Assembly (NCBI GenBank): GCA_021234155.1
Contig: JAJEKV010000011.1
Span: 14,733,255 to 14,797,254 of the forward strand
DNA: 64,000 nucleotides
Direction: 5' to 3'
From: Isoetes taiwanensis
Lineage: Eukaryota > Streptophyta > Lycopodiopsida > Isoetales > Isoetaceae
Position numbers and translations under genes: made by a program
The notes under the pieces: model-generated
Database searches by the model: none
Told to the model about the DNA's origin: nothing
Seen by the model: the letters and a program-made list of their open reading frames with translations, nothing else
Shown: positions 24,620-64,000 of the stretch, piece after piece
How positions within the stretch are numbered: position 1 is the stretch's first letter
Layout: every line of letters starts with the position of its first letter

Positions 24620-25861
24620 ATGGTTGTGTCAAGCTCAAAAGAGTCAAATCTTGTTCGCCTACAAGGAGCTGGTGTGCAGAAGCTTCCAATAATTGAATCA
24701 AAATATGCAGACGGATTGAACAGGCCCGACATAGCTTCCATCGCTTACCTCCTGCGACGCTGTGGCAACGCTAAAAATCTTTTCAGAGGTAGGCTAATCC
24801 ACGAGGACATCGTAATAAATGGTTTGCAAGGGAATAGGTTTTTAGAAAACCATCTTATTGAGATGTGTGGCAAATGTGGAGCTCTGCATTAGGCAAGGGC
24901 AGTCTTTGACAATATGCACAGGCCAAATTCTTTCTCATGGAATATTATGATTACAGCTTATACCAGACACAATAAACTGCATGAAGCTCTTCGAATCTTC
25001 CAACAAATGCCGGAGAGAAATGTGGTGGTATCTTGGAACGCTATGATTTCAGCTTATGTTGAACAAGGTCAGTTCTTTGAAGCTCATTGCTTTTTTAAAC
25101 AATTGCCTCATCCAGATGTGGTGTCATGGACTGCAATACTCTGGGTATATGCTAAATTAGCTCAATTTGAGGAAACAAAGAGACATTTTGATGTAATGCC
25201 TGCCCGTAATGTGGTTTCCTGGACGATCATGCTTTGGATTTATGTCCAGCAGGATTACCTGAAAGCTCTTGAATTCTTTCAAGAAATGCTAGAGAGAGAT
25301 ATGTTTTCATGGAATATTATGATGTCTGCATATGCTCAATATGGTTGCTTAGAGCACGCTTTCTATTTTTTTAGGAAAAATGCCACATAGGGATGTTGTT
25401 TCTTGGAATGCCATGATTTCTGTATATGCTCAAGAAGCCAGCTGAAGCTTTTTAGGCACATGTCTGAGCATAGTCTGCCATCATGGAACGTGATCATCAG
25501 TGCATATTCTCAGCATGGATATGGCATTGAAGCACTCCAATTCTACAAAAAAATGCATCTATTTGGCATGATGCCCAATGGGCGTACTTTCAGCAGTATT
25601 ATGGTTGCATGCAGCCATGAGGGACTCATTGATGATGGCTGTCATTGTTTTGTTTCCATGAGTATAGATTATTTCATCTCACCAGTGTTGCAACACTTTA
25701 GCACCATGGTTGATCTTCTTAGCTGTGTAGGATTTCTAGGCATTGCTGAATCACTTATCAATAATATGCCTCTTGAGCCTGATGCAGTATCATGGACAGC
25801 ATTATTATGCTCACACAAACTTTTTGCCAGATGCAGATGCAGGCATGATGTTTGCAATTAG
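24620..25861 (+). pseudogene. Pentatricopeptide repeat (PPR, PLS-type) pseudogene
   Basis: PPR proteins bind organelle RNA, one 35-residue helix pair per base. The frame shows a run of such repeats (motifs SWNIMITAYTRHNKLHEAL, VVSWNAMISAYVEQGQFFEA, DVVSWTAILWVYAKLAQFEE, PSWNVIISAYSQHGYGIEAL) followed by the PLEPDAVSWTALL signature that precedes the E domain. An in-frame TAG at about 24,890 falls in a GALH-ARAVF repeat core, and frame changes occur near 25,375 and 25,435. The E/DYW tail is missing. It is a degenerate copy of a nuclear editing-factor-type gene. Confidence 0.85.
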
Positions 25862-30898: not shown

Positions 30899-33682
30899 AT
30901 GGACCTCGAAGAGAAGATTGAGGAGGCAAGTGCGTGGAACACTTTCCAGTTCCGTCTCTTTGTTGTGGCTAAGCTCTAATTACGCTTCTTGTGGCAGGTG
31001 CAAGCAGAGATTTGGCAAACAAACCCTGCAGAAGGGCATTTTGACCACAGTCGGCTGCCCTGGACGGTTCTAGAGCACCAGGATCCTGATCTGGATGGAG
31101 GAGGCACTCAATTGGTGTGGGTTTCCTATATTCCCACCTCACGAGTCCCGAATTTCATTGCTGGGGAGCAAAAAAATGGGGATGCACCCTGCAACTTCTA
31201 TATAAGAAGCTCTCAAATGAATAAGGGGCTATCAAAACCAGGCAGCCGGACATATCTTTCTCTGAAAAGGTATGCAGTTCTTTAGTTTTGTAGATTACAC
31301 ATGGAAAATAAAGCATGGCTGATTCATCCTCAATGGTGGAAAGCAGGTACTGGTGTAGTTTTGGGCCCCAAGGCAATTCTGGGAACACCCATGTTGTGGA
31401 AGATCGACCTCCTCCTCCAGGGCAAAGGAGGATGAGGGTTCAAAGGGGGGAGAGTGTTAGAAGGGGATGCCAATGTCATTTCACTTTGAGACAACTCTAC
31501 CTTCTTCCGGAAACCACTCAAATTACCTACCACAAATGGGATCATGTGAACCAGCAAGGTCAAATTTGCCACGGTAAAGCTTTAGCTGCTGAGAAAGGGT
31601 TGAGGTATAGGCTGGCTCCGTGGCTCACGGATGAAAAGAGAGAATGGATCAAACAAAAGCTATTGCATTACATTGCACCTAGAATGGTGATGAATATCCA
31701 CCAAGAAAGAGTGAGCTTGAAGAAGGAACTACTTGGTTTGGAGGGGCTTTCGAGAGATGACATGTTAAAGATGCATGAAATCTACAACATTGAAAAGGAA
31801 GTGACCCGAAATGTTTGGAAGTTGCATGAAGATGAAGCTACAAGCACTCATATGTGGGTGCAACAACACCTTGACAGTGTATTCCATTATGAGCAAGGTG
31901 ACATCTTCCAATTGGGGGTTATGACTCCCACGCAAAGAGGAGCCTTGTTGAGATTTGGAAAGGATAGGGCATTGTGTCTTGACTCCACCTACAAGACGAA
32001 CGGGATGAGGTAGGGTTGCACCTCTTGCATTTCAATGCTCATATAAGACTTTAGCTTCCTTGCTAACATTCTTAAGTTGTGTTGCTACTTTACATTAAAG
32101 GTACTACCTCTTCACTATCATTGGATTCGATGAGTACTTCAATGGGATGCCTTTGGCTTGGATTATCACGAACTCCCAGAAGAAAGATGCAATTGCAAGA
32201 TGGCTAGAAGCCATGAAAGTGTGGGTTGAATGCCATGACTCAACCTGGAAGCCCTCATGCTTTATCACCCATTCTTGTGATGCTTAAAATACATGCAATT
32301 AAAAAGGTAACAATGTTTCCACTATGAGCAATTTTAAGTGGTTCATTTTGCACACTCTATGAGCATGTGGCATCTCTCTACACTTCAGGTTTACCCTAGC
32401 GTGCGCTTGAACCTTTGTATCTGGCATGTGAGAAGAGACTGGTTGAAGTGGTTAGTCAATAACGTGAAGAACAAGGAGATAAGGAACCAAATGTTTAAGG
32501 AATTGGGTGAGATCATGTATGGAATCAAGTGTCCCCCAGGTAACAATGACTATGGAGAGGATTACAATGAGGCTGTTAAAGTAGAAGCTTTGAGAAAGTT
32601 GGAAACCCTGAAAGGAAAGTATCCTCAGTATCCCAGATTGGCCTCCTACATGAGTCGTGAGTGGACTCGCAATATATGTGAATGGGTGTTGGCCACAAGA
32701 ATGTTCCCCCATTCAAACCAAGAAACCAATGCTGCAATAGAGGGTTGGCACAAGATACTAAAAGATGCTTTGGGCATCTCCAAATCTGTCTGAAGGGGCG
32801 GGAGGATGGACCGGCTACTACATATGCTTGTCAATGAAGTTGAGGCACATACAACATACTCAAGGTAATTTGCAAAAGATAACGTGTTTTGTATACTTAC
32901 GTGTGCACTAACACACCACGTTGTTTCATTTACAAGCACACAGGGGGATGAAAGAGGCTGGTTTTGTCATAAACACATCACAAGAGAAAATTATAGAATC
33001 GGCTATTCGAGGGGCGAGGCGCATTCGGGATGATGCAGTCACCTTTGTAGACCTCGAAGGAGGCGAGGCATATGTCCAGACTCTTGATCTCAACCGCCAA
33101 CCGTACTTTGTGAGTGGGGCACACAGGAATTGGGCGAGTTGTGATTGCCCATGGGGTGCCAAGGGTAACCTTTGCAAACACCAAGCTAAGGTTATCCAAC
33201 TAATGGACAGTTACAGAGAGCAGGACATCTTGAAGGTTCTAGGTTCCGATTATGGAAATGCAAGTGGTGGCATGGAGCACTTGCGCCCTTGTACACCTGG
33301 GGTCCCCCCTGGAGATTCACTTGAAGAGATAGTTAGTCTAGAGGATGACATTCTCCCTATGAAGAAAGTTGGGTTGACCGTAGAGGAAGCTAGGGCCTCA
33401 CTAGAATCGTGTGTTGCAAGGGTTATGGGACGGGCCTCCAAGGATCCCAGCCTCCTCATAGCCACAGAGGCGATGATGAGACAAGTCGACACCCGTGCTT
33501 GAGAGGATGGATCGAAGAGGATGGACCATACAAACTATATCGCCTTTGTCGATCTTTCTTTGGAAGAGGAGGCATATGGAACGAGCCTTGCAAGGATGAA
33601 GCCATTCTTGGAAATAGGGAAGAGGGGGCCAAAGGACAAGAAACGGAGTTGGAAGGAAGTTGAGATGGAGAGCCTTGCTTAG
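30899..33682 (+). pseudogene. MULE transposase (mudrA-like), broken
   Basis: The transposase would cut and move the element. Probable exons: 30,899-30,925 (GC-AG intron possible), 30,998-31,269, 31,347-32,009, 32,101-32,306, 32,389-32,864 and 32,944-33,682. The N-terminal zinc-binding region contains RRGCQCHF and CHGK. The DDE domain begins LCLDSTYKTNG (first Asp); the second Asp position reads CFITHSCDA, where His replaces it; the Glu region is NAAIEGWHKILK. A SWIM finger CDCPWGAKGNLCKH follows. Stops: TAA twice near 32,284-32,300, TGA near 32,791 and TGA at 33,500, after which 60 coding-like codons continue in frame to 33,682. A one-base frame change lies near 32,290. It is clearly inactive. 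Confidence 0.9.
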
Positions 33683-53539: not shown

Positions 53540-54550
53540 ATATGTTGTGATAGGAGGATATATATTTACCTATGGATTGCATTGAACTTTCAAAGAATCG
53601 AAGTTTTAATGCCTTTATCTAAAAGCAAAGACAATGGCATTATCATGGGACGTATATCGAAGTTTAATCATGTCAATCCTAAGATGTCTCGAGAAAAATT
53701 ATTTATATAAGATTTTATGCCTACTTGCAAAAGCAAGGGACCATGACGTTGCCACGTTTACATAGGTCCGTAAACCACCAATAGGTGGAAATTCCTAGAA
53801 GTTCCACTAATTGTTTGTGTTAGGTTATTTTTTGGATTGTAGGTTTATGTCCTCGTTGCTTAGAATGCCACCACAAGTTCTTAACATTGAACACGTTACA
53901 AGTTTTAACACTTCCATACACGGAAATTTTCATTCACATTTACTTGGAAATATGCTTTCTTGTATATGCAAAGGACTATGTAGTGACATTACCCTCGGAC
54001 ATGCGTATATGGGAGCTTGTCCGACTACTCCATCTTTTAGAAAGAAAAAAATCATAGGCATTTGTTCCTATAGGTCCATTTTTTTTGAAAGATTTTATGC
54101 CTCTTTTCAAAACAAAGGACCATGATATTATTTTAAGAGAATTTACGTTTTTTTTTATCCTAGGACGTATCTATGGGAGTTTGTTTTGCAGGTCCATCAA
54201 GCGTTCTTGCAGGAGATGTGTATTTGGAACTCTAGTCGGTATTCTATCTTTATTTGAAAGATTTGTAACCCATATGCATCTCTTAGGAAAGGCAAATGAC
54301 CATGACATAGACCTGTATATGCTAAGCGATATCTTATTTCAGATAGACCCAAACTACTCTTGTAGTGTTGCATTGTCATGGCATCTTATAGCATCTTTAT
54401 GTAGCTGGCCTAGAATATACAGCAGGAATCAGGCAAAACAGCGTACAAGATAGTGATTGTTTATCCGATGATGTGCAGTTTTAGCTCATAGATGGATTTC
54501 AGTGTAAGAAAGCATATTCGAGACTAGAGATGTATGTCGTTTTAACGGTA
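53540..54550 (+). repeat. Interspersed repeat family R, copy A
   Basis: Aligns with 60,063-60,833 (copy B) and 61,670-62,610 (copy C) in the same orientation. Shared blocks include GCATTGTCATGGGAC-type text, GGACCATGACATT, TAGAAGTTCCACTAATTG and TTTATTTGAAAGATT. The repeated phrase 'CATGGGAC...AAAG' makes each copy internally repetitive. No coding capacity or ends were recognised. Confidence 0.8.
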
Positions 54551-56400: not shown

Positions 56401-56999
56401 AAAAGAGTTTTATTTTCTGACCCTAGATAGAGCATATATAACCGAGTTTTTATTGACCACATTCATTCAATAGGAGAACCCCCCGGAAGGCCTGGACGTT
56501 GAAGAGGAAAGAATCTTGTCTCTTGCAAAAGAATTTGATAGGGAAATATGGTCTTGGCTCCAACAGCTCGAGTGAGAAAGGCTTTCTAGACACATTTCAA
56601 GTCTTCCTGAGTGGCAAGTGATATCATTGGACCCTACACTCCACTCCATATAGAAGAAGAAGCTCCATTAAAGCTCGAAATAATTGTGCCTGATAGGACC
56701 AGACATAAAGTTCTACTTCATGGCAAATGTTCTGCATGGCATATAAAGCTTCCAGCCTCCAGTCATCCATTGTTCAATACATGTGGTCTAGCATGTGGTA
56801 ATATGTAGCATAATAACAGGGGGTTACTTTTAGATTTTTATACGTTTTTTCACATGGTTTTTCTATGATTTCGTTGTTGTATTCGTTGAGGTGTACTAAA
56901 TAGTATTTCTAGAGTGCACCCTTTATGGGCCGTTGATTTTCGTTGGTTGGAACAATCCGAGGGTTGTTGTCTTTCTCTGCATGTGTTTGTGCATGAACA
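56401..56999. other. No recognisable gene
   Basis: A phrase, AATATGTAGCATAATAACAG, at 56,799 is repeated in the arms of the large inverted repeat (57,697). Otherwise nothing was seen. Confidence 0.4.
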
Positions 57000-57000
57000 C

Positions 57001-57168
57001 TGCGCATGTGTATGCATGTGCATGTGTGTGCATGTGCATGTTCATGTGCATGTGCATGTATATGCATGTGCATGTGTATTGTGCATGTGCATGTGCATGT
57101 GCAAGTGCAAGTGCAAGTGCAAGTGCATGTGCATGTGTGCATGTGTGTGCATGTGTGCATATGCATGT
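57001..57168. repeat. TGCATG / GTGCAA microsatellite
   Basis: A run of GTGCAT units with local variants (GTGTGC, GTGCAA) over about 165 bp. The long frames on both strands here are a by-product of the repeat and not genes. Confidence 0.95.
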
Positions 57169-57618
57169 GTACTTGCCCTCTTGGATTCTTATTGCGGAGT
57201 GGATTTTACTACCACGAGATAGATTTTTTGCTCACACTTACAAAGGTATTTGTTTTTAATGTTTCTTCAGCTTAGCATAATGTTTTTTTTACAAGGTATT
57301 GGTTTCCCCGATTCTACAATGTAGTGCTTTGCAAAAAACCTCCTTTTGTTTCCTTCCTAAGATTTGTCAAGCAGATTCAAGTTTAGGCCCTCTGTTTGCT
57401 TCCAACTCTTGGATATTCTTGGCTTCCGGATTGTTCATAGCAGCCAGCCTTTAGCTTCAATCAACAAACGGATTCTTATGCACACAACAGGCGGATTATT
57501 CCACGCCTTTTTCCATGTCACGCAGATCACCAAACAAAGGACCACAAGAATGCATTTATATTGTAGGAATGGAACTTTAATCGAACCATAAGGTGAATCA
57601 TGCATTACCTTTAAGCTA

Positions 57619-58902
57619 GAGATGGAGCATCCAAAATCATATGGATTGATAAACAATGGTGTCATTGTGAAAGAGAAATAGTTGTAGCGGAAGTAACAAT
57701 ATGTAGCATAATAACAGGGGGTTTTCTTTGTGTTGCAAACTTTATGACTTTCAGAATAATGGATCAATCTGCTCTATCTTTATGGTAACTTTTACTTATG
57801 TTCTATTTGTTTTATTGTGATCAAATTCAAAAGCTACAGGTGATGAAAGCCTCAAATGAATTCTAGTTTTTTTCTGGTTTGAATTCTAAAATTTTTGTCA
57901 CGCCGGGGGGCATGACGTCCCTAAGGCCCCGAAGGGGCCAAATTTTTTTTTTTGCAACACAAACCATTAACATCCAACATATAAAAATTAAATCCCCCAA
58001 CACATAATAACCAACACATAACAACCATTGACATTAACAACTAACACATAATTACCATTGACATTAATTAACACAACCATTGGGTCCAACACATTTAAAT
58101 TAAAATCCCCCTTAAACCCCCTTTGGTTTGGGTGCATATTCACACGGGGGGTGACATAGGGCAGCGAGAGCCCTCATAATTGTATTTTGCACGTATGAAA
58201 TCAACACCATATAGTATTCTGCTTGAAATCTTATAGTATTTTGTGAATCTTAGTATACAGTATAGCAAATTTTGTATTTGCATACCCCACAAACGAGGAA
58301 CTTTACGTACGATATAGATTAAGGAATAAGGAGTGAATATGCCTATCCAATGTACTCTCTGTTGCTGAGTCACCCCCGTGTGAATATGCACCCAAACCAA
58401 AGGGGGTTTAAGGGGGATTTTAATTTAAATGTGTTGGACCCAATGGTTGTGTTAATTAATGTCAATGGTAATTATGTGTTAGTTGTTAATGTCAATGGTT
58501 GTTATGTGTTGGTTATTATGTGTTGGGGGATTTATTTTTTATATGTTGGATGTTAATGGTTTGTGTTGCAAAAAATTTTTTGTTCCCTTCTGCCTTTAGG
58601 ACGCCACCCCCTACAAGGACGGACAAAAATTTTAGAATTCAAACCAGAAAAAAACTAGAATTCATTTGAGGCTTTCATCACCTGTAGCTTTTGAATTTGA
58701 TCACAATAAAACAAATAGAACATAAGTAAAAGTTACCATAAAGATAGAGCAGATTGATCCATTATTCTGAAAGTCATAAAGTTTGCAACACAAAGAAAAC
58801 CCCCTGTTATTATGCTACATATTGTTACTTCCGCTACAACTATTTCTCTTTCACAATGACACCATTGTTTATCAATCCATATGATTTTGGATGCTCCATC
58901 TC
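57619..58902. repeat. Large inverted repeat: 537-bp and 534-bp arms, 213-bp spacer
   Basis: The left arm 57,619-58,155 and right arm 58,369-58,902 are near-perfect reverse complements (outer end GAGATGGAGCATCC, inner end CATATTCACACGGGG). The main divergence is at 57,900-57,955 against 58,570-58,620. A transcript through it would be a hairpin of more than 500 bp. The right arm continues outward into a LINE fragment, so the left arm may be the copied one. No target duplication was found at the outer edges. Confidence 0.95.
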
Positions 58903-59928: not shown

Positions 59929-59954
59929 ATAAGCTCATAATGCTCATAACCTCA

Positions 59955-60833
59955 ACAATCCAACCATGTGCTAATTTTAAATCGTGGTTCACACATGTGA
60001 AAAAATGGGAAATGAGAATGGCATGGAAGATACAGTCACTTTGGGAAAATAATTTTCTATGTTTTTTTATCTTATAGGAAGATATATGCATATTTACCTA
60101 TGCATTGCATGGAACTTTCAAAGAGTCGAAAGTTTTAGTGCCTCTATCTGAAAGCAAAGGCAGGGGCATTGTCATGGGACATGTGTATATCAAAGTTTAA
60201 TCATGCCAATCCTAAGATGTCACGAAAAAAGTTATTTGTAAAATTTTATCCCTTCTTGCAAAAGCAAGGGACCATGACATTGTCATGTTTACATAGGTCC
60301 GTAAACCACCAATAGGTGGAAATTCCTAGAAGGTCCACTAATTGTTTCTTTTAGCTTATTTTTTGGATTGTAGGTTTATGGCCTCGTTGCTTAGAACTCC
60401 GCCACGACTTCTTAAGATTGAACACGTTACAAGTTTTAACACTTCCATACACGGAATTTTCATTCATATTTACTTGGAAATATGCTTTCTTGCTTATGCA
60501 ACGGACTATGTAATGACATTACCCTTGGACATGTGTATATGGAAGCTTGTCCGACTACTCCATCTTTTAGAAAAAAAAAATCGTAGGCATTTGTTCCTAT
60601 ATGTCCATTTTTTTGAAAGATTTTATGTCTCTTTTCAAAGCAAAGGACTATGACATTATCTTAGGAGAATTTACGTTTTCTTGTTTATCCTAGGACGTGT
60701 CTGTGTCTATGGAAGTTTGCTTTGAAGGTCCATCAAATTGTTTATGCGTTCTTTCAAGAGTTGTGCTTTGGAACTCTGGTCGGTAGTCTATCTTTATTTG
60801 AAAGATTTGTAACCCATATGCATCTCTTAGGAA
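59955..60833 (+). repeat. Interspersed repeat family R, copy B
   Basis: Matches copy A from 60,063 onward and copy C from 59,962 (CCAACCATGTGCTAA) onward. It lies between two TRIM fragments and stops abruptly at 60,833, where TRIM internal sequence begins. Confidence 0.8.
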
Positions 60834-60835
60834 AG

Positions 60836-61039
60836 GATAGTGTGGTCTATGGTTTGTGATGCTCGAGAACGAACATAGTTCTAGTGGGAGAGATTGTAAT
60901 GGACCCATTGGAGACCGCTCGAGTGGATCTTGGAGTCACGTTCCAGAGACATCAGCATAAATGGGTAGAAGCAACTACTCATAAACATCTAGACAGTTTT
61001 GCCCAGTTGGTTAAGGGCATGTCGATTAGGAACGTCACA
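60836..61039 (+). mobile_element. TRIM fragment: internal end plus complete LTR
   Basis: Contains the last 59 bp of the TRIM interior (GTGTGGTCTATGGTTTGTGA, the purine tract AGTGGGAGAGAT) and a full 145-bp LTR at 60,895-61,039. The LTR differs at several positions from that at 59,568, so it is a separate or old copy. Confidence 0.85.
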
Positions 61040-61551
61040 TAAAATCTTCCCTAACCTATAAAAAAAAAAGGTTCTCTGATACTATATTTTTGATAACTTG
61101 AATGTTCAAAAAATTAGTTATCACCATGTGGTCATGCCGAAATCGCATCTTCAAGAGCCCAACAAGAAGATGAACCCAATAGCACCATGACAACCCCTCT
61201 TAAATAATGCAAACAAAAGGTACAAGTAGTGATTCATTACAAGTTGTAGTGTGCTAACTATTTGTCTACTTCTCAACTTATTGTAGACTTCCTATCTCAT
61301 CTCGTACATAGCAGTATCCAATTGCCATCATAATTGTAGTTTGGCTTTAGTATCCAATTGCCATCATAACTGTAGTTTGGCTTTATCTATCACGCCTCTA
61401 AGGTGCACGTTTGAATGGTTTTACCTTTAAATAGACCTCAACGGGGAAAAATTTAATTCAACTCAATTCTTTAAGGTCACAATGCCGTAATGGAACAAAA
61501 CATGCTAATTTAGTATATTTATTTGAGGGGATGTCCTCCAAACCAACATTC

Positions 61552-62610
61552 CAACCATGTGCTAAGTTTAAATTGTCGTTCACACACGTGAAAAAATAAA
61601 AAATGAGAATGGCATGGAAGATGCAGTCACTTAGGGAAAATGGTTTTCTATTTTTCTTTTTTCCTTACAGGCAAATAAGAGGGCTGAGATAAAGATATGT
61701 ATATTTACCGATGCATTGCATGGAAGTTTCAAAATGAAAGTTCTGAGACCTCTATGCGAAATTAAAGGTTATGCCTCTATGAGAAAACAAAGGACAATGG
61801 CATTATCATGGGACATGTATATCAAAGTTTATTCATGTCAATCCATCTTTGTTTCTAAGATTTCAAAAAGAATCTTTATTTCTAAGATTTTATGCCTCCT
61901 TGCAAGGGCAAAGGACCATGGGATTCTCATGTTTACATAGGTCCATACTTGGCAACTATGCTTCCTTGCATACGCAAAGGACCATGAAATGACATTATCC
62001 TAGGACATGTGTATATGGAAGTTTCTTCAAGTAGTCCATCTTTTAAAAAAAAATTATAGAATTTTGTTCCCATAGGTCCATCTTTTTGAAAGATTTATGC
62101 CTCTTTTCGAAGGAAATGACAATGACGTAAGATGGAAATTTATGTTTTCTTGTTTATGTGTCTATGGCAGTTTGTTTGTGCAGGTCCATCTAAAGATTTA
62201 CGCGTCCTTGCAAGAGATGTGTATATGTATAAGTATATGGAACTGTGGCCGGCAGTCCATCTTTATTTGAAAGATTGGAAACCCATGTGCATCTCCTGGC
62301 AAAGGCAAAGGACCATGACATAGACCTGTGTATACTAGGGGGTATCTTATTCAGATAGACTCAAACTGCTCTTGCAATGTTGCATCGTCATGGCATCTTG
62401 AGCATCTTTATGCAGACGGGAATATACGACGCGAATCAAGTAGCATCTCAATGCAGATGGTCTGGAATATACAGCGGGAATCAAGTAAAATAGCTTAAAA
62501 GACAGAGGTTTTTTGTTTGGAGATGTGAAGGTTTAGGTTATGGGTTGATTTTAGGTCATGGGTGGATTATAGAGTAAGGAAGCATATTCGAGGACGGAGA
62601 TATATGTCGT
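61552..62610 (+). repeat. Interspersed repeat family R, copy C
   Basis: Begins CCAACCATGTGCTAAGTT like copy B and continues past its end with text shared with copy A (GACCATGACATAGACCTGT, GTTGCAT.GTCATGGCATCTT, AGCATATTCGAG). With A and B it defines a family of about 1 kb. Confidence 0.8.
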
Positions 62611-62950: not shown

Positions 62951-64000
62951 ATGGCGAATGAAGCTCTCCTCCTGGATGTTAAGCACGAATTCGGCATCGA
63001 CCCTTTCAACAATTTTAATGTCGCCGTTTGTAGTCGCAGCCCTTCCTGCAGATCCGCCTTTATCAACGCCATTTTTCGAAGATATCAAAACGGTATTTCC
63101 CCTTCTTTTTTTAATCTCTTTCTAATTAGCTTAGGACTCAAGCAAATTTCTAATTGTTCTTCAAATCCGGCGCATTCACAGCAGTTGATTTGGAGAAGAA
63201 ACAGGGCGTTTATGGTATGGTTAGCTACAGAGATAGGAATCTGCCTTCTACTGTTTTTTGGGATATTCCTTTTAGCAGCATAGCGATGCCGGACTACTTT
63301 ATCCGTTACAGGCTGTTTGCTTTTGATTGTATTTTCATTGTCTCAAGCAACACCTTCACAGAAATGGAAAATGAATTAGCGGTGCAAGCGAAGAAATGGA
63401 AAATGCCCTTTGCGATGGTAAGAATAAATGGCTATAAGCTTGTAAAGCACATAGCTTTGAAGCTAAATCATAGTATGAAGTCTTCCTCCATCATTCTTCG
63501 CCGAATAGTGTCTAAAACCACACCTCATCCTGTGTTTATTATAAACTGTGCGGCTTTAGGGGCTGCAAAGCTCTATCCCTACAGATTGTTCAGAAACAGC
63601 AGGAGTGATGATTCACTTTCTGGATTAGATGAAGAACGTCTTGTACAATTCTTGGATGCTTTGGTAGATTTCAAATACTCCAATTATTTCATGAAGAGGA
63701 AAGCTGAAGATTTAAAAAATCAACAGCCTAAGGATGAGATGCAGAAGAGTATTGAAGGATACCAAGAAGAAGATAAGAAGAAAGCTGGGATGCAGAAGAA
63801 TGTTGAAGGATACAAAGAAGAAGATAACAAGAAAAATGGGATGCAAAAGAATGTTGAAGGATACAAAGAAGAAGATAACAAGAAAAATGGGATGCAAAAG
63901 AATGTTGAAGAATACCAAGAAGAAGATATTAAAAAGAGGAATGCTGAAGGATACCAAGAAGAAGATATTAAAAAAGATGGGATGCAGAAGAATGTTGAAG
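62951..64000 (+). CDS. IRG-like pseudo-GTPase with C-terminal repeats (partial at window end)
   Basis: Exon 1 62,951-63,092 and exon 2 from 63,182, joined in phase over an 89-bp GT-AG intron (GGTATTT...ATTCACAG); open to the end, at least 320 residues. The order of motifs follows immunity-related GTPases: a P-loop strand NVAVCSRSPSCRSAFINAI (residues about 22-40), the switch region ending VFWDIPFSS, then FIVSSNTFTEMENELAVQA and PFAMVR, a hallmark IRG block. Yet GxxxxGKS reads SRSPSCRS, DxxG reads DIPF, and TKxD after MVR reads INGY. Nucleotide binding is therefore unlikely. After a helical part a charged tandem repeat begins near 63,733. No lesions, so probably a living gene. Vertebrate IRGs act on pathogen vacuoles; the role here is unknown. 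Confidence 0.8.
63733..64000 (+). repeat. 51-bp coding repeat in the IRG-like gene
   Basis: Five units so far of a 17-residue motif GMQKNVEGYKEEDNKKN (51 bp); the third and fourth differ very little, one later unit is shorter, and the array continues off the window. Every unit keeps the frame. The peptide is strongly charged and should be helical or disordered. Confidence 0.95.

Follow-up and report, generated by a model that had tools for sequence, protein, structure and literature searches.

A gene for an IRG-type G domain without intact GTP-binding motifs in the lycophyte Isoetes taiwanensis

Introduction

The genome of the lycophyte Isoetes taiwanensis contains a gene, denoted here as gene A, that by homology carries the G domain of the immunity-related GTPases (IRGs), best known as cell-autonomous immune GTPases of vertebrates, in a form in which none of the GTP-binding motifs G1, G3 and G4 is intact. 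Computation places gene A in a clade of four genes in which the loss of the motifs probably occurred once, finds its branch to be under selection after that loss, and reveals a hydrophobic segment at the end of the encoded protein. We put at about an even chance the proposal that gene A is a plant "quasi-IRG", that is, a non-switching, tail-anchored G-domain fold that acts by protein contact, probably with its canonical paralogues. Plant entries of the Pfam IIGP family may well exist in protein databases. No report of an IRG in a plant was found in the titles and abstract openings of the open-licence papers searched, which represent a partial coverage of the literature, and a term search of the main texts of two Isoetes genome papers retrieved neither "GTPase" nor "immun".

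Structure of Gene A

The stretch of DNA analysed (the window) comprises 64,000 nucleotides of contig JAJEKV010000011.1. Gene A is an intact two-exon gene on the plus strand, and its 5' part occupies window positions 62951–64000, a segment for which the sequence and coordinates given in a preliminary description, made from the letters alone, were borne out by re-reading. Exon 1 (62951–63092, plus strand) starts at the first ATG of the open frame, at 62951, and encodes a segment preceding the G domain, the first strand and the altered P-loop; it scores 76.8 bits against the exon-1 profile of the family, gene A being among the ten seeds of that profile. The intron (63093–63181, plus strand) is of phase 1 with GT..AG borders, and its position, just after G1, is common to the modelled paralogues. 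A second possible acceptor lies 3 bp further on (its AG ends at 63184), and its use would drop a single residue (Ala). Exon 2, whose window part spans 63182–64000 on the plus strand, scores 133.2 bits against the family exon-2 profile, gene A again being among the training sequences. As to the extent of the gene, the part within the window is as had been described, but the gene does not end at the window edge: exon 2 continues for 827 bp beyond it, to a stop that ends at position 2082 of the locus (L001:2082). The frame, which had been called clean outside the motifs, indeed offers 595 open codons with usable splice sites, corresponding to a product of 595 residues.

In this product, the G-domain-like part (about 210 residues) is followed first by a charged array of repeats and then by a stretch rich in Ser, and the C-terminal end is strongly hydrophobic, so that about 385 residues lie C-terminal to the domain. 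The array starts in frame at 63734, its first part occupying 63734–64000 (plus strand), with a unit of 51 bp, equivalent to 17 residues; 3.8 copies are found at 63734–63928, and diverged units follow up to the window end. When the family profiles were run across the window, no further trace of the family besides gene A was found (next best score, 7.8 bits).

Homology to the IRG G Domain

The preliminary description had identified the product as an IRG-type protein in a plant and had pointed to a search with the Pfam IIGP profile (PF05049) as a check. The spliced N-terminal 257 residues of gene A score 31.7 bits against this profile, above the curated cut-off of 24, and exon 2 alone scores 21.6 bits, below it. 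A single-sequence search with gene A against 177,635 PDB sequences retrieved mouse IIGP1 (1tq6 and others) with an E value of 2.8e-7, aligned over IIGP1 residues 69–183. With a profile built from eight family members, half of which belong to gene A's clade, the IRG structures came first (E 1.8e-29) and the next family followed at E 4.8e-7, while a profile of nine motif-bearing paralogues matched IIGP1 over residues 69–235 with E 3.6e-39, the first non-IRG match standing at E 4.4e-10. Likewise, a motif-bearing paralogue scored 109.9 bits against Pfam IIGP, and MMR_HSR1 was its next family with 30.5 bits. Within the clade, genes B and C also match IIGP (31.3 and 26.7 bits, respectively). No Pfam match was obtained for gene D at E up to 0.01; it was joined to the group via the search with gene A (E 1.7e-10), the exon-2 profile and the tree. 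AIG1, GBP/dynamin, septin and MMR_HSR1 were considered as alternative assignments for gene A and rejected: only IIGP was listed for it in a search admitting E values up to 10, in which the filters drop most matches above about 0.1.

The IRG assignment, therefore, holds for the G domain and does not extend to a full IRG. IIGP1 has helical domains on both sides of its G domain. The Pfam IIGP match of gene A spans profile positions 35–149 of 375, and that of a motif-bearing paralogue ends at 198, so that the C-terminal helical domain of true IRGs goes undetected; indeed, the Pfam profile detected none of the helical domains that flank the G domain in true IRGs, although a diverged one could be missed. 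A single-sequence structure model, of exon 2 only and built from the unaligned sequence, was of low confidence (mean pLDDT 44, pTM 0.42). Foldseek returned 257 matches for it at E up to 10, none of them at 0.001, with Bit1 as the best (E 0.12) and no IRG or G domain among the best 50 of the 257. Since a low-confidence model gives meaningless matches, this result counts neither for nor against an IRG fold.

A contamination of animal origin was also considered and rejected, since gene A lies on a contig of 24.3 Mb, with PPR repeats in the window, and the family is spread over many contigs. The plant host named in the preliminary description is supported, PPR repeats such as those of the window being usual in plants.

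The Family in the Isoetes taiwanensis Genome

The genome searched comprises 1,658,258,908 bases in 1110 contigs. The IIGP profile produced at least 50 matching stretches, which is not a gene count, and a search with gene A gave 41 matches, some of them new with respect to the IIGP search; the matches are distributed across many contigs. Paralogues such as those at L009, L017 and L013 share the two-exon layout, with the intron after G1, and fit the same family profile as gene A.

Seven IIGP-type loci are apparent kinase fusions, their joins being predicted ones. In six of them (L022, L024, L031, L035, L037 and L038) the kinase sequence and the G1 exon lie in one open frame; for L024, L035 and L038 the sequence read contains only an incomplete kinase part, and L037 and L038 are near-copies. 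In the seventh, L028, the kinase comes after G3 and G4, in the frame of the second exon, and looks degenerate around the DFG position.

A divergent member was observed outside the clade of gene A: locus L033 (contig C907) has GNRGDGRS at G1, with Arg for Lys, EFPE at G3 and SKPD at G4, and combines a shortened domain with a long charged tail. A match of similar score was found on a second contig, at C1043:9909479-9909709. Finally, a contig scan for prokaryotic relatives yielded 56 stretches fitting a pattern, none of which was confirmed.

Loss of the GTP-Binding Motifs

At the G1 (P-loop) position (63032–63055), gene A reads SRSPSCRS; at the G3 position (63262–63273), DIPF; and at the G4 position (63424–63435), INGY, all on the plus strand. 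The corresponding sequences in the L009 paralogue are GASGVGKS, DFPG and TKAD. The motifs were compared in an alignment of 36 G domains of this genome, four from the clade of gene A and 32 others, and were considered intact when they conformed to GxxxxGK(S/T) for G1, DxPG for G3 and (T/S)KxD for G4. This survey of paralogues for canonical motifs, which the preliminary description had suggested, gave the following counts: of the 32 other rows, G1 is intact in 30, G3 in 21, G4 in 30 and all three in 20, whereas none of the four clade members has an intact version of any of the motifs. The absence of all three is found only in this clade (0 of the other 32 rows), although G3 is loose elsewhere too.

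The four members coincide in much of what they have lost. None of them has the P-loop Lys, which is replaced by Arg in all four, or the G1 Gly before it, and each also lacks the G3 Gly and the G4 Lys; the G3 Asp is retained by all four, gene A included. Consequently, the earlier claim that the key residues of G1, G3 and G4 had been lost is correct for G1, G4 and the Gly of G3, but not for the G3 Asp. Genes C and D still have the first Gly of G1, and all members but gene A still have the G4 Asp; gene A lacks both residues. The G1–G3 interval (switch I) is shorter in C and D. In gene A, seven of the nine conserved motif columns have changed (two kept), compared with 24 of 36 other conserved columns kept (Fisher p 0.024). 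Gene B, which keeps three of nine motif columns and 26 of 36 others (p 0.05), shows the same tendency, whereas genes C and D have diverged throughout, with no concentration of changes in the motif columns (p 0.13 and 0.71).

From what is established for G proteins, a protein that lacks the P-loop Gly and Lys, the G3 Gly and the G4 Lys and Asp, as gene A does, would not be expected to bind GTP in the usual manner. Because its G1, G3 and G4 are not intact, gene A is not filed here as a functional IRG GTPase. The residue following the G3 Gly, at the position of Ras Gln61, is a Ser in gene A (DIPFSS), and not a large hydrophobic one; it is Ala in L009 (DFPGAG), Ser in the minus-strand gene of L017 and Ile in IIGP1 (DLPGIG). 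According to PMC1297648, a large hydrophobic residue at this position is far from diagnostic.

A Clade of Four Genes

The search for relatives showed that gene A does not stand alone as an altered copy. Genes A, B and C are neighbours within 5 kb, B (266 residues) at L001:2766-3638 and C (230 residues) on the opposite strand, at L001:4952-4175, while D (311 residues) is found on a different contig (L034). The four form one clade with support 100/99, which stays at 100/98 when the G1, G3 and G4 columns are removed and mouse IIGP1 is used as the outgroup. The clade is nested within the plant family, adjoining the motif-bearing minus-strand gene of L017 (93/84), although its exact placement is less sure than the clade itself on account of the long outgroup branch. 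This topology indicates that the loss of the motifs in A–D is derived and probably of single origin.

Twelve spliced models were left out of the tree. Four were replaced by the hand-checked A, B, C and D, and the other eight were broken or truncated (L007p_726, L044m_698, L043p_782, L041m_681, L010p_6559, L006p_177, L016m_784 and L032p_731). Also outside the tree are L029, a near-copy of L002 in which no splice sites were found; L030 and L036, each a broken copy of part of gene C; and loci whose exon 2 had no exon-1 model to go with it, among them L019, L025, L039 and L040. L021m was kept, although a poor choice of donor left a stop in its model, read there as X. L002p contributes to the tree and to the 32 other rows of the motif counts, but is missing from the 31 models of the hydropathy table.

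The copies at L030 (contig C1030) and L036 (contig C911) correspond to part of gene C exon 2, to which they are 95% and 97% identical, respectively, and both are broken in frame. They begin at the same place, and share upstream sequence that is absent from gene C.

Selection on the Coding Sequence

Selection was evaluated with a codon model of seven sequences, implemented in our own script, that allows a separate omega on a terminal branch. It was applied to the 211 columns that A and B have in common, with the stalk and the tail outside, and synonymous sites were near saturation. On the terminal branch of gene A, which postdates the loss of the motifs, omega is 0.126, and fixing it at 1 costs 24.1 units of 2dlnL; the largest value in 22 simulations under omega 1 was 5.35. 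Gene A thus shows signs of purifying selection after the motif loss. The gene D branch is constrained as well (omega 0.201, 2dlnL 14.37), and no significant constraint was found on the branches of B (omega 0.449, 2dlnL 2.39) and C (omega 0.61, 2dlnL 0.58). Pairwise, A and B, which are 50% identical in amino acid sequence, give an omega of 0.176 (2dlnL 44.2), and the other pairs tested range from 0.045 to 0.518, with 2dlnL of 6.6 or more. A and B also differ less at codon positions 1 and 2 (0.355 and 0.289) than at position 3 (0.498).

A dN/dS comparison among the copies had been proposed as a check in the preliminary description, which regarded the gene as a pseudo-GTPase kept for another job, perhaps that of a decoy or scaffold. 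The comparison speaks for constraint on A and D but is not significant for B and C; the idea of a gene that is kept agrees with the selection on A, with the amendment that the loss is common to a clade of four rather than proper to a lone copy.

The Hydrophobic C-Terminal Segment

Every clade member reaches, after the domain, a best 19-residue Kyte-Doolittle mean of between 1.68 and 3.47, located at or near the C-terminus. Gene A provides the highest value, 3.47, at its C-terminus, its best mean before the G domain being 0.24. Among the 31 non-clade models, the 14 with a testable tail reach at most 1.12 (all are below 1.2) and none has a hydrophobic segment after the G domain; instead, 12 of the 31 reach 1.6 before it (one at the threshold as printed). 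Since the start codons of the non-clade models are not fixed and further exons are possible, it is only suggestive that this segment sets A–D apart from the other family models. The hydrophobic stretch of gene A has about 40 residues, a length that makes one or two membrane passes possible; its hydropathy suggests that the protein may be inserted in a membrane, perhaps as a tail-anchored one.

Possible Function and Comparison with Known Systems

The mechanism that we favor for gene A would be as follows. Its IRG-type fold would no longer bind GTP in the usual way, the domain would be borne on a long flexible stalk, and the C-terminal segment would hold the protein to a membrane. Acting through the surfaces with which IRG-type GTPases pair, it would dock at an endomembrane on canonical paralogues, or on whatever targets these, and would then hold, block or report them. 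The fold, the absence of nucleotide binding, the membrane insertion and the canonical partners are what we infer in this proposal. Contact is considered the likeliest job because much of the conserved frame has been kept and is selected, while the motifs have been lost. A point against it is that the helical domains of true IRGs were not detected, and any pairing surface located in them would be missing.

Several other explanations have to be weighed. Stalk and anchor might be what matters, with the G-like domain as a cargo-binding head unrelated to the regulation of GTPases. The roughly 385 residues that gene A carries after the domain, made up of repeats, the Ser-rich stretch and the hydrophobic tail, are consistent with such a structural tether, but B, C and D have retained both domain and hydrophobic tail without a long stalk, and we regard the tether as unlikely. 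A slightly smaller chance is given to an unusual nucleotide binder, in which the conserved Arg and its neighbours would provide a novel mode of binding for GTP, ATP or some other phosphate ligand. An Arg at the Lys position in four of four genes represents more order than free decay predicts, and the G3 Asp kept throughout, the first G1 Gly of C and D and the G4 Asp of B, C and D point in the same direction. However, the four residues missing from every member, the shortened switch I of C and D and the additional loss in gene A of two residues, the G4 Asp and the first Gly of G1, argue against it.

It could also be contended that gene A is a pseudogene or relic whose frame has stayed open by chance. 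Decay does occur in the clade, as the broken copies of part of gene C demonstrate, and constraint is not significant on the branches of B and C. For gene A itself, the 595 open codons with usable splice sites, the rejection of omega = 1 on its branch and the lower divergence from B at codon positions 1 and 2 make this explanation improbable. The least probable of these readings is, in our opinion, that of a decoy, a mimic of canonical IRG-type GTPases that binds a pathogen factor aimed at them: the family shows the expansion and divergence that are common among immune families, and the loss of motifs in a retained frame would fit, but decoys under attack often evolve fast and the branch of gene A is conserved.

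The pseudo-GTPase domains pG1 and pG2 of p190RhoGAP, as well as CENP-M, belong to other families and exemplify a G fold that lacks nucleotide binding and is used for protein contacts. The closest parallel within the IRGs is provided by the vertebrate IRGQ quasi-GTPases (human and mouse IRGQ/FKSG27 and zebrafish irgq1-3), whose GTP-binding motifs are modified or lacking and which the authors of PMC1297648 suggest to regulate functional IRGs. Like IRGQ, gene A is an IRG homologue with altered GTP-binding motifs that exists beside motif-bearing relatives. In contrast, its clade falls among motif-bearing paralogues of the same plant, which points to a separate origin; its match is limited to the G domain, while mouse and human IRGQ are described in that source as colinear with IRGs over the terminal parts; and the clade has a hydrophobic C-terminal segment, to which gene A adds a repeat stalk. 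With canonical IRG GTPases such as mouse IIGP1, Irgb10 and Tgtp2, gene A shares the G-domain sequence, and differs from them in the missing motifs, the undetected C-terminal helical domain and the plant host. The motif-bearing plant paralogues (L009, L017, L013) differ from gene A in their intact motifs and, as far as the 14 testable tails are concerned, in having no hydrophobic segment after the G domain.

A broader notion, which we find doubtful but not far-fetched, is that this lycophyte runs an IRG-type GTPase system comparable to that of animals, with an expanded motif-bearing family, kinase fusions and an independently evolved, tail-anchored quasi-GTPase clade that regulates it. If this were true, GTPase-dead IRG regulators would have arisen at least twice, in animals and in plants, and the kinase–GTPase fusions could couple the plant system to signalling. 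A large plant IRG-type family with apparent kinase fusions and a selected, motif-less, putatively tail-anchored clade makes the repeated evolution of quasi-GTPase regulation in this fold testable, as well as whether IRG-type GTPases serve immunity outside animals.

Other Features of the Window

The PPR repeats of the window, of plant type, are located at 24893–25390 (Pfam PPR, 106 bits). Two open frames at 31312–33502, the second of which weakly matches a SWIM zinc finger (19.9 bits for a cut-off of 19.6), may be what is left of a Mutator-like transposase. An inverted repeat of about 535 bp, with arms at 57619–58155 and 58369–58902 that are 95.5% identical and about 210 bp apart, is perhaps a mobile element of the foldback type (57619–58902). 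Upstream of gene A, diverged direct repeats, 74–88% identical, are found at 53550–54292, 59953–60836 and 61544–62305, and a tandem array of the hexamer TGCATG, in about 32 copies, occupies 56978–57169.
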